DNA of 64,000 nucleotides from an uncultured Brachyspira sp. GTDB lineage: Bacteria; Spirochaetota; Brachyspiria; Brachyspirales; Brachyspiraceae. A program made the position numbers and the translations under genes. This document shows positions 23,088-25,842 of the stretch, piece by piece; positions within the stretch are counted from its first letter, which is position 1, and each line of letters starts with the position of its first letter. The notes under the pieces are model-generated. The model worked only from the letters and a program-made list of their open reading frames with translations. It was not told the origin of the DNA and ran no database searches. The stretch is from the NCBI RefSeq assembly GCF_944388875.1, contig NZ_CALXKQ010000002.1:124001-188000 (forward strand), written 5' to 3'.

Positions 23088-24515
23088 ATGTTTTCTCTAG
23101 ATTTCAAAATAAAAGTAGATAGAATATTATTTGGATTTTCTGCATATTTACTTGATAGACTAGCTTTTATAGTTGGAAAATTTAAAAATATGGATCATTC
23201 TATAGCTAAAGATAATATGAAAAATGTTGTTATAGCAAAATATCTAGGATTGGGGAGTATAGTAAGATCTCAGGTTATTATTCAAGATATAAAAAATACA
23301 TTTCCGAACTGTAAGGTACATTATCTCACTAGCAAAAAAAATATTAAAATTTTTGAGATAATACAGAATGTTGATAATATTTTAACCATAGACGACAGTG
23401 GAATAATCAGTATGTTTTTTTCTACTTTAAGATTGGTGATTCAATTGCTTAAGATTAAAGTTGATGCTTTTATAGATTTAGAGGTATATTCAAGATATTC
23501 CAGCTGCATTACAGTTATGTCATGTGCTAGAAATAGATATGGATTTTTTAGATATGATATACACTTACATATAGGAATATATACACACATGCTGTACTTT
23601 AATAGTCAGAAGAATATTACAGATATATATTTGCAAATATCTAATTATTTAACATCGAGTAATATGTACAATAAAAATATACCTAAATTTATATTTAAAG
23701 AAGAGCATAAGAATGAGGTAGAAAAATATTTTTTAGATAATTTGAAAAATAAAAAAGAAGATGATATTTATATAGGAATAAATGGAAATGCTAGTGAGCT
23801 TGCTTTAGAGAGAAGATATCCGCCTTTGTATTTTGTAGAGCTTATAGAAAATCTTTTGAATAATATAGAAGATAAGAATATAAATATTTTTTTAATAGGT
23901 TCACCATCGGAAAAAAAATATTTGGAAGATGAGATATATAATAAATTAAATAATAAAAATGGAGTATTTTTGACGGCAGGTATTTTCTCTTTAAATGCTT
24001 CTATATATTTGTTATCTAAATTTGACTTATTTATAACAACAGATTCAGGTCCTCTTCATTTTGCTTATGCACAAAATGTCAATATAATATCTATATGGGG
24101 TCCTTGTTCTAATTTGCATTATTCTTTTCCAAATTATAAAAAAGATATTCCTATTAATTCATCGGTATATTGTTCTCCATGTATACATTTAACAATAAGG
24201 CCACCTTGTAATGGTAATAATATATGTTTGCAGATGATTTACCCAAAAAATGTTTATATTAAAACTATAAAGTACATAAACATATATAGAGATGAATATG
24301 TAATGATGTATAAAGAATTATTTAAAAAATACGTGGACAATAGATACTATTTAGGCAGTATTACAGACCAGACCAGACCAGACCAGACCAGACCAGACCA
24401 GACCAGACCAGACCAGACCAGACCAGACCAGACCAGACCAATTGAAATCTGGTTAGAATATATAAAAGATAATATATTAATATATAAAAAATTACAACCA
24501 ATGTTAAGAATTTAG
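23088..24515 (+). CDS. GT9 family glycosyltransferase (heptosyltransferase-like), copy 1 with pentamer-repeat tail
   Basis: A 475-residue GT-B enzyme of the ADP-heptose:LPS heptosyltransferase group. The N-terminal (acceptor) domain has AKYLGLGSIVRSQVIIQDI; the C-terminal (donor) domain has the family motif TTDSGPLHFAYA and a Cys-rich YCSPC segment. Residues 1-339 are identical to copy 2; after WGP they diverge. Fifteen GACCA repeats then add a DQTRP x5 tail and a further 20 residues. Length changes of the repeat would replace that tail by an early stop. A terminator overlaps the end of the gene. It is the last gene before the duplicated copy and is probably needed for a surface glycan or lipooligosaccharide core. 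Confidence 0.82.
   Translation: MFSLDFKIKVDRILFGFSAYLLDRLAFIVGKFKNMDHSIAKDNMKNVVIAKYLGLGSIVRSQVIIQDIKNTFPNCKVHYLTSKKNIKIFEIIQNVDNILTIDDSGIISMFFSTLRLVIQLLKIKVDAFIDLEVYSRYSSCITVMSCARNRYGFFRYDIHLHIGIYTHMLYFNSQKNITDIYLQISNYLTSSNMYNKNIPKFIFKEEHKNEVEKYFLDNLKNKKEDDIYIGINGNASELALERRYPPLYFVELIENLLNNIEDKNINIFLIGSPSEKKYLEDEIYNKLNNKNGVFLTAGIFSLNASIYLLSKFDLFITTDSGPLHFAYAQNVNIISIWGPCSNLHYSFPNYKKDIPINSSVYCSPCIHLTIRPPCNGNNICLQMIYPKNVYIKTIKYINIYRDEYVMMYKELFKKYVDNRYYLGSITDQTRPDQTRPDQTRPDQTRPDQTRPIEIWLEYIKDNILIYKKLQPMLRI
24366..24440 (+). repeat. Pentanucleotide tandem repeat GACCA x15 in GT9 copy 1
   Basis: Fifteen perfect GACCA copies (75 bases) inside the 3' end of the gene, encoding DQTRP repeated. Five is not a multiple of three. 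The other two frames end at TGA or TAG within a few codons after the repeat. Confidence 0.95.
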
Positions 24516-24547
24516 GTATTAGATTTTTAACATTGGTTATTTTTTTA
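24496..24547 (+). terminator. Terminator at the end of GT9 copy 1
   Basis: The 12 bases 24496-24507 pair perfectly with 24527-24538 and a run of T follows. The stop codon lies in the loop. It should limit read-through into GT9 copy 2, which begins only about 20 bases later. Confidence 0.85.
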
Positions 24548-24567
24548 GAAAATAATAGGAGATAGCA

Positions 24568-25842
24568 ATGTTTTCTCTAGATTTTAAAATAAAAGTAGAT
24601 AGAATATTATTTGGATTTTCTGCATATTTACTTGATAGACTAGCTTTTATAGTTGGAAAATTTAAAAATATGGATCATTCTATAGCTAAAGATAATATGA
24701 AAAATGTTGTTATAGCAAAATATCTAGGATTGGGGAGTATAGTAAGATCTCAGGTTATTATTCAAGATATAAAAAATACATTTCCGAACTGTAAGGTACA
24801 TTATCTCACTAGCAAAAAAAATATTAAAATTTTTGAGATAATACAGAATGTTGATAATATTTTAACCATAGACGACAGTGGAATAATCAGTATGTTTTTT
24901 TCTACTTTAAGATTGGTGATTCAATTGCTTAAGATTAAAGTTGATGCTTTTATAGATTTAGAGGTATATTCAAGATATTCCAGCTGCATTACAGTTATGT
25001 CATGTGCTAGAAATAGATATGGATTTTTTAGATATGATATACACTTACATATAGGAATATATACACACATGCTGTACTTTAATAGTCAGAAGAATATTAC
25101 AGATATATATTTGCAAATATCTAATTATTTAACATCGAGTAATATGTACAATAAAAATATACCTAAATTTATATTTAAAGAAGAGCATAAGAATGAGGTA
25201 GAAAAATATTTTTTAGATAATTTGAAAAATAAAAAAGAAGATGATATTTATATAGGAATAAATGGAAATGCTAGTGAGCTTGCTTTAGAGAGAAGATATC
25301 CGCCTTTGTATTTTGTAGAGCTTATAGAAAATCTTTTGAATAATATAGAAGATAAGAATATAAATATTTTTTTAATAGGTTCACCATCGGAAAAAAAATA
25401 TTTGGAAGATGAGATATATAATAAATTAAATAATAAAAATGGAGTATTTTTGACGGCAGGTATTTTCTCTTTAAATGCTTCTATATATTTGTTATCTAAA
25501 TTTGACTTATTTATAACAACAGATTCAGGCCCTCTTCATTTTGCTTATGCACAAAATGTCAATATAATATCTATATGGGGACCTGGATCATATTGGCATT
25601 ATGGATTACTCAATTATAATAAAGAAATAAATTTAAGCTCAAATGTATATTGTTCTCCATGCTTATATTTAACTAATAAAGTTTCATGTGAAGGTAATAA
25701 TATATGCTTGCAGATGATTTATCCCCAAATAATATATAATGAAACTATTAAGTTGCTTAAAATGAATGATACTAGAACATATATAGAAAATGAAAATAAA
25801 ATAATAAAAAAAGACTATTATCTAGGCAGTATAATAAGATAA
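24568..25842 (+). CDS. GT9 family glycosyltransferase (heptosyltransferase-like), copy 2
   Basis: A 424-residue paralogue of the preceding gene. DNA from 24568 to about 25580 is almost identical to 23088-24100, with only a few synonymous changes visible, and residues 1-339 are the same. The donor side then differs (GPGSYWHYGLL in place of GPCSNLHYSFP), and the gene ends YYLGSIIR without the repeat tail. AGGAG precedes the start. It follows a strong terminator with no room for a promoter, so it may be poorly expressed and serve as a recombination partner. The last codons form part of a long terminator stem. Confidence 0.82.
   Translation: MFSLDFKIKVDRILFGFSAYLLDRLAFIVGKFKNMDHSIAKDNMKNVVIAKYLGLGSIVRSQVIIQDIKNTFPNCKVHYLTSKKNIKIFEIIQNVDNILTIDDSGIISMFFSTLRLVIQLLKIKVDAFIDLEVYSRYSSCITVMSCARNRYGFFRYDIHLHIGIYTHMLYFNSQKNITDIYLQISNYLTSSNMYNKNIPKFIFKEEHKNEVEKYFLDNLKNKKEDDIYIGINGNASELALERRYPPLYFVELIENLLNNIEDKNINIFLIGSPSEKKYLEDEIYNKLNNKNGVFLTAGIFSLNASIYLLSKFDLFITTDSGPLHFAYAQNVNIISIWGPGSYWHYGLLNYNKEINLSSNVYCSPCLYLTNKVSCEGNNICLQMIYPQIIYNETIKLLKMNDTRTYIENENKIIKKDYYLGSIIR

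Follow-up and report, generated by a model that had tools for sequence, protein, structure and literature searches.

A pentanucleotide repeat behind a complete GT9 enzyme gene in Brachyspira: a probable intercistronic, phase-variable transcription attenuator

The gene pair at positions 23088-25842 of a 64,000-nucleotide (nt) stretch of DNA from an uncultured Brachyspira sp. (contig NZ_CALXKQ010000002.1, positions 124,001 to 188,000; hereafter the window) raises the question of what a long repeat could regulate when it lies behind, rather than within, the enzyme encoded by a gene. Two GT9 genes stand in tandem here, in a window of 27% G+C content from a 3.1-Mb genome, and a CAGAC array and a predicted intrinsic terminator separate the enzyme of copy 1 from the start of copy 2. 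The original prediction regarded the pair as a possible recombination cassette. Here, we argue from the sequence of this locus and of its relatives across the genus that the end of copy 1 is likely to be an intercistronic phase-variable transcription attenuator, in which the number of CAGAC units would govern read-through into copy 2. The coordinates of all features are collected in Table 1.

Both copies belong to the GT9 family by two measures: their PF01075 scores are 70.8 and 64.8 bits against a gathering cut-off of 22, and both conserve TDSGPLH, the D-S/T-G motif of GT9. In copy 1 the CAGAC array is joined directly behind the residues YYLGSI, and both the orthologues and copy 2 end in YYLGS[IV]IR followed by a stop codon. 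Since the repeat lies behind the natural C-terminus, it cannot truncate the copy 1 enzyme or switch copy 1 on and off, and classical translational ON/OFF phase variation of copy 1 was rejected because the repeat follows a complete enzyme. The position at which translation ends does depend on the repeat. All three frames of the array are open, reading as (DQTRP)n, and each leads to a different stop codon: the stop of the present frame stands at +74, inside the hairpin (54-97), as opposed to +4 and +15 for the other two. Alternative C-termini generated by a 3'-end repeat are the mark of C-terminal phase variation, and copy 1 would have 475, 450 or 452 residues according to the frame.

The hairpin behind the repeat has the properties of a strong intrinsic terminator. 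Its predicted fold has a free energy of -20.1 kcal/mol (z -7.3), ATTTTTTT follows it directly, and it is much the stronger of the only two terminator-like matches between 17.5 and 26.1 kb. The original prediction had placed a terminator with a 12-bp stem at this site; the terminator stands, although its stem is 19 bp long when folded as RNA. The prediction had further noted that only about 20 bases separate the terminator from copy 2 and that copy 2 has no promoter, and our analysis agrees with the first and makes the second probable. The ATG of copy 2 lies about 20 nt past the T run and 29 nt past the hairpin, and this spacing, together with a promoter scan, leaves copy 2 without a credible promoter of its own and probably dependent on terminator read-through. 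One promoter-like match (24527-24556) overlaps the 3' arm of the hairpin and has its start about 5 nt before the ATG, past the ribosome-binding site; in this region such matches occur at the level of shuffled sequence (81 found, 84 expected).

This arrangement suggests the following mechanism. Slipped-strand gain or loss of CAGAC units would shift the reading frame behind the completed copy 1 enzyme. In the present state of 15 units, a ribosome would enter the terminator hairpin and stop at the internal TAG, keeping the 5' arm single-stranded and allowing RNA polymerase to continue into copy 2, which seems to lack a promoter. With either of the other frames, translation would end 50 or 39 nt short of the hairpin; the terminator would then form, leaving copy 2 off. 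The cell would alternate between the expression of copy 1 only and that of copy 1 plus copy 2, GT9 enzymes that differ in their last 85 residues. Because the pentamer frame decides whether the ribosome enters the terminator, read-through is expected to be switchable, a consequence that the original prediction had missed. Read-through into copy 2 is predicted for the present, ON state; we infer both that this read-through depends on translation and that it affects the glycan.

The arrangement is not confined to this locus. In a sample of 26 Brachyspira genomes, arrays of (CAGAC)5 or longer occur in 19 genomes, and all but two of the 49 non-redundant arrays examined lie at gene 3' ends with a conserved module behind them, in the order spacer, AAAAATTACAACCTATG.., hairpin and T run. 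The exceptions are at L080 and L088, and in some modules the hairpin has decayed. A covariance model (R1), built from 20 sequences of which the window module is one, finds the module in 24 of the 26 genomes. The genes upstream of the modules represent ten or more Pfam families that are unrelated to one another and mostly of surface-glycan type; they include GT2, GT9, GT11, FkbM and other methyltransferases, radical SAM, SPASM, TupA ATP-grasp, pyruvyl transferase, cytidylyltransferase and short-chain dehydrogenase. Downstream, the next gene on the same strand begins 9-40 nt past the hairpin in 19 of the 34 modules with a canonical hairpin, which is too close for an ordinary promoter. Two further observations concern the surroundings of the arrays. 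A recurring motif, WWIPxKKWRxxFR, directly precedes the repeat in many unrelated glycan enzymes (e.g. L033, L037 and L050) and is N-terminal in others (such as L042), a shared shuffled segment. At L088 of B. alvinipulli, a CAGAC array of 11.8 units on the reverse strand (near 6126) lies near the 5' end of an open reading frame (ORF) resembling an adenine-specific DNA methylase, a candidate phase-variable methyltransferase.

The conservation of the module concerns both the hairpin and the frame that leads into it. Within the hairpin, 9 pairs have changed on both sides, compared with 1.9 in shuffles, and pairing is 92%, a value that drops to less than 50% in slid controls. In the 47 modules of the genus, one frame enters the hairpin in 31 and two frames in 16, and never none or all, by counts that were partly automatic and in some entries corrected by reading the sequences; the early frames mostly stop 39-69 nt before the hairpin, with three nearer. 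In 30 of 32 module clusters, the frame that crosses the hairpin remains open. For spacers of 45 nt the count is 30 of 31, where 10.1 would be expected from a simulation in which the consensus is mutated to the observed divergence, and the counts for the remaining two frames are 15 and 0. Variants of the hairpin loop keep the frame, with distances of 24, 30, 33, 36 and 39 nt and two exceptions at 35. Spacer variation is equal among the three codon positions (0.31/0.30/0.33), which indicates that translatability is kept rather than a spacer peptide; on this ground, and because leader-type modules encode other peptides, a functional tail peptide is disfavoured as the conserved object. Ordinary gene ends have a different geometry: of 16 ordinary genes that have a terminator, all begin their hairpin at -1 to +40 from the stop codon, and no stop lies deep inside. 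Directly after the repeat, in the first 20 nt of the spacer, there is also a small TATGTA..TACATA stem, with 85.8% of cells paired and two double-changed pairs, which could be a polymerase pause element. An integron-like attC hairpin, brought to mind by the cassette-like arrays, was set aside informally, as a T run follows the hairpin and its loop length varies freely.

The same module is preceded by several kinds of repeat (CAGAC, ACAAG, CAGAG, ACAGG, ACAG, and poly-G in the form of a G11 tract) and is found in leaders as well as between genes. In the leader-type modules, ACAAG arrays lie in short leader ORFs (MTRQDKTRQDK..), followed by the same hairpin and by a gene within 100 nt, and one such ORF lies behind a TTGACA-18-TATAAT sequence. 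Leader-type loci occur in the window's own genome (L269, L271, L285 and L300; L270 begins at a contig end). Repeat number differs at the same loci among B. hyodysenteriae plasmids, from 3.2 to 12.2 units and through all three frames: a plasmid fucosyltransferase gene has 3.2, 8.2 or 9.2 units, and ATP-grasp genes have 7.2 to 12.2. Related arrays of other kinds were also observed. At L280, L281, L283, L286 and L303, ACAAG arrays with no hairpin lead straight into a longer ORF, which by sequence looks like ON/OFF phase variation of the ordinary N-terminal kind within this genus. Outside Brachyspira, CAGAC arrays at L114 (an Endomicrobia metagenome-assembled genome), L140 and L146 are followed by hairpins that resemble terminators, and their frames include some with an early stop and some that cross the hairpin; this may be the leader-type switch in another setting.

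Several considerations weigh against an attenuator at copy 1. The locus in the window is one copy in one assembly, and length variation is known from sister loci; its own module is a weak, divergent member of the group (45 bits). About one third of the modules have no same-strand gene close behind, and some lack the repeat or have a decayed hairpin. The modules are homologous, so that P-values are too small and overstate independence, although the contrast between the frames in openness is clear despite this homology. The mechanism further assumes that translation and transcription are coupled in Brachyspira, and the case is built on sequence. It is also conceivable that the switch acts on copy 1 itself, by C-terminal phase variation, the repeat-altered tail changing the stability or location of the enzyme; in one version of this idea, the hairpin-crossing frame adds an ssrA-like degron. 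C-terminal phase variation is an already described class (PMC5320596). Many of the tails end in IAA, IVA or LAA, like the tmRNA tag of this genome (ADEYALAA); of 39 hairpin-crossing tails, 31 have a final A and 17 a final IAA; and a few synonymous changes retain Ala-Ala where the hairpin pairing changes. Ala-Ala is, however, also dictated by the 3' arm of the hairpin, the window tail ends in MLRI and has no degron, the spacer peptide shows no codon-position constraint, and the leader-type modules carry the same hairpin with no upstream enzyme and with different tails. On the last three of these grounds a degron was rejected as the main function and kept as a rival or an addition only, and we regard an effect through the tail as unlikely.

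The two effects could in principle be combined in an either/or switch, in which the hairpin-crossing frame of many modules would add an ssrA-like degron (..IAA) to the upstream enzyme and permit read-through, and the other frames would stabilise the upstream enzyme and silence the next gene. Every change of the repeat would thereby replace one glycan enzyme with its neighbour, along whole arrays. We doubt that this is so, and since the window tail (..MLRI) has no degron end, the attenuator half alone would operate in the window. A further explanation, that an ordinary gene-end terminator is accompanied by a neutral repeat brought in with a mobile or horizontally shared 3' end, with the open frame as the relic of an old gene end, agrees with the presence of homologous modules at many unrelated glycan genes and with the loss of repeat or hairpin from some of them. 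It is very unlikely in view of an open frame that persists despite divergence, a hairpin that covaries, unrelated repeats recruited to the same position, and repeats that are long, pure and of varying length among strains.

The recombination cassette of the original prediction is best judged from the structure and origin of the pair. As had been proposed, the two proteins share their first 339 residues through WGP and then change abruptly, the genes diverging from 24101 and 25581. The shared tract of 1013 nt is 99.8% identical, its differences, at nt 18 and 963 of the ORFs, are both silent, and the identity starts exactly at the ATG, the sequences upstream of the two ATGs being unrelated. The tails, of 85 residues, have about 48% protein identity. 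A recent recombination or duplication fits the near-identical tract and its abrupt end as the source of the pair. In three relatives (G004, G006 and G007) a single GT9 gene, 72-76% identical to copy 2 and colinear with it, occupies the same place in the same operon, and copy 1 joins the methyltransferase gene upstream of it just as in G004. These relatives keep the ancestral arrangement intact: one GT9 gene that starts with the junction of copy 1 and finishes with the end of copy 2. Because the start of copy 1 and the end of copy 2 correspond to a single gene, the inserted material would comprise the copy 1 tail, the repeat-terminator module and the 5' kilobase of copy 2. Another known GT9 gene as the source of the copy 1 tail was rejected, as none in the 26 genomes is closer than the orthologues (50% identity). 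The tandem arrangement comes from one assembly of 48 contigs, in which a near-perfect 1-kb repeat is a possible site of assembly error.

According to the cassette explanation, copy 2 is poorly expressed and exchanges its 3' end with copy 1 across the 1-kb repeat, deleting or restoring the pentamer. The 1013-nt tract with its two differences and abrupt end would permit such an exchange, and a crossover could regenerate the ancestral gene, which consists of the copy 1 start and the copy 2 end. A role for copy 2 chiefly as a silent source of 3' ends was not sustained, as copy 2 is a complete GT9 gene with an intact ORF and a good ribosome-binding site. No recombinant or alternative GT9 arrangement was found among the 26 genomes, and the pentamer-terminator module is present at dozens of loci that have no such gene pair, which implies that it does not exist for 3'-end exchange. 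Recombination between the copies is possible, but it does not explain the recurrence of the module; the cassette is not the best explanation of the pair, and we consider it highly improbable as the function of this locus. Likewise, a swap of donor-sugar specificity between the two ends is speculation. TDSGPLH binds the donor phosphates in GT9 enzymes, and it sits within the part that the copies share, the differing part being the last 85 residues only. The pair resembles the GT9 lipopolysaccharide heptosyltransferases (PDB 3tov, 1psw and 2h1f, relatives by sequence) in belonging to PF01075, and differs from the named heptosyltransferase equivalogs (TIGR02195 and others) in scoring below their curated cut-offs (best 60.9 versus 134.6 bits). 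A predicted structure of copy 1 (mean pLDDT, the predicted local distance difference test score, of 57) was used neither for claims nor for fold searches because confidence is poor in the divergent tail and the repeat.

Table 1. Features of the GT9 locus and its operon (positions in the window)
Feature	Positions	Strand	Remarks
AAGCAAC x11	17927..18003	+	operon 5' leader; separate phase-variable element
G10 tract	21078..21087	+	radical-SAM gene (20468-21097); out of frame, 209 vs ~288 residues
G9 tract	21872..21880	+	first methyltransferase gene; in frame
G13 tract	22750..22762	+	second methyltransferase gene; in frame
GT9 copy 1	23088..24515	+	ORF; 475 residues in present repeat frame; PF01075 E 9.5e-18
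Near-identical tract, copy 1 side	23088..24100	+	2 differences in 1013 nt vs 24568-25580
(CAGAC)15.4 array	24364..24440	+	100% pure; read as (DQTRP)n; within 475-residue ORF
TGA	24443..24445	+	used at one unit lost, copy 1 of 450 residues; 50 nt before hairpin
Attenuator module, covariance model R1	24447..24546	+	E 5.7e-4 in its genome; 45.3 bits
TAG	24454..24456	+	used at two units lost, copy 1 of 452 residues; 39 nt before hairpin
Small spacer hairpin	24457..24478	+	7 bp
Intrinsic terminator hairpin, predicted	24496..24538	+	19 bp; T run at 24540-24546
TAG of present frame	24513..24515	+	15 units, 475 residues; inside terminator hairpin
Copy 2 ribosome-binding site	24557..24561	+	AGGAG; from sequence
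GT9 copy 2	24568..25842	+	ORF; 424 residues; PF01075 E 1.4e-19
Near-identical tract, copy 2 side	24568..25580	+	

The operon from 18085, which contains the pair, has further phase-variable elements, namely three G tracts and a heptamer leader, which agrees with a locus built for variation. The methyltransferase genes that carry the G9 and G13 tracts are split in relatives, one in G004 and the other in G024. A promoter-like sequence precedes the leader ORF (MNSIMCTFISNKQQAT..) in which the AAGCAAC array lies. Of the three frames of the array, one ends at +15 past the repeat and two at +97 and +104, where they overlap the probable start, near +95, of an 803-residue gene. This looks like phase-variable translational coupling with no terminator, and (AAAC)n leaders in G004 and G007 have a similar geometry. 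The protein encoded at 18085-20496 belongs, with two at L214 (3895-6660 and 11991-14684), to a family of 800-950 residues with a conserved N-terminal region of about 170-200 residues and a divergent remainder; the family has two paralogues in G004 and G006 and no match in Pfam or NCBIfam. Elsewhere in the window there are a 275-nt tandem duplication (33391-33915) and six 102-nt (34-residue) repeats resembling TPR-type repeats (37465-38097).

If the attenuator operates as proposed, phase-variable attenuation would be a reusable, dispersed part in a spirochaete genus, employed both between genes and in leaders, and it would provide combinatorial, heritable control of Brachyspira surface sugars. 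Such control would bear on immune recognition, serotyping and vaccine design for swine dysentery and related diseases, and the RNA levels of downstream genes would be predictable from repeat counts alone. A limited literature search, which included term searches in Brachyspira genome papers, found no report of phase variation in Brachyspira.

The closest known system is the pil1 pilus operon of Streptococcus gallolyticus, in which GCAGA repeats in a leader peptide move the stop codon relative to a terminator (Danne et al. 2014, PMC3894217). Pilus expression is low when the stop lies 39-49 nt before the terminator and high when it lies 4 nt before the terminator, inside it or past it; the effect requires translation, and transcription rises 11-fold once a hairpin arm is deleted. 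Repeat number at pil1 and pil3, the two pilus operons of one species for which this attenuation was demonstrated, varies among isolates (PMC3894217). In a locus of the pil1 type, one frame or more should end some 28 nt or further ahead of the hairpin, and one or more should end at the hairpin, inside it or past it. At copy 1 the stops lie 50 and 39 nt before the hairpin or inside it, the repeat (CAGAC x15.4) is translated, pure, long and of a unit length that is not a multiple of three, and the terminator, by prediction, is strong, with a 19-bp stem and a T run, and covaries across the genus. In both systems an intrinsic terminator lies downstream of a pentanucleotide repeat that is translated as part of an ORF, and the stop distances fall into the same classes; by analogy the window element may work like a pil1-type attenuator, as an intercistronic variant. 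They differ in position, as the pil1 repeat lies in the 5' leader peptide of a pilus operon whereas that of the window lies between genes, behind a complete enzyme, and in the recurrence of the Brachyspira module at dozens of surface-glycan loci with several types of repeat. The leader-type loci of the window's genome (L269, L271, L285 and L300) are a closer match to pil1.

Two other systems share single elements with the proposed switch. The rph-pyrE attenuator of Escherichia coli (PMC2784333) is likewise intergenic, and read-through into its second gene depends on where the first gene stops, a position that a frameshift has moved; its wild-type control responds to uridine triphosphate, and the frameshift is an accidental laboratory mutation, whereas in Brachyspira a hypermutable repeat provides the frameshift. 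C-terminal phase variation, described in Helicobacter canadensis and Neisseria gonorrhoeae (PMC5320596), shares a 3'-end repeat that switches among three C-termini. We found no control of a terminator or downstream gene described for that class, whereas the Brachyspira repeat precedes a conserved terminator module. Thus the kind of switch is known, and what would be new in Brachyspira is its intercistronic position behind a complete enzyme, its reuse across a genus and the exchange of one repeat for another.

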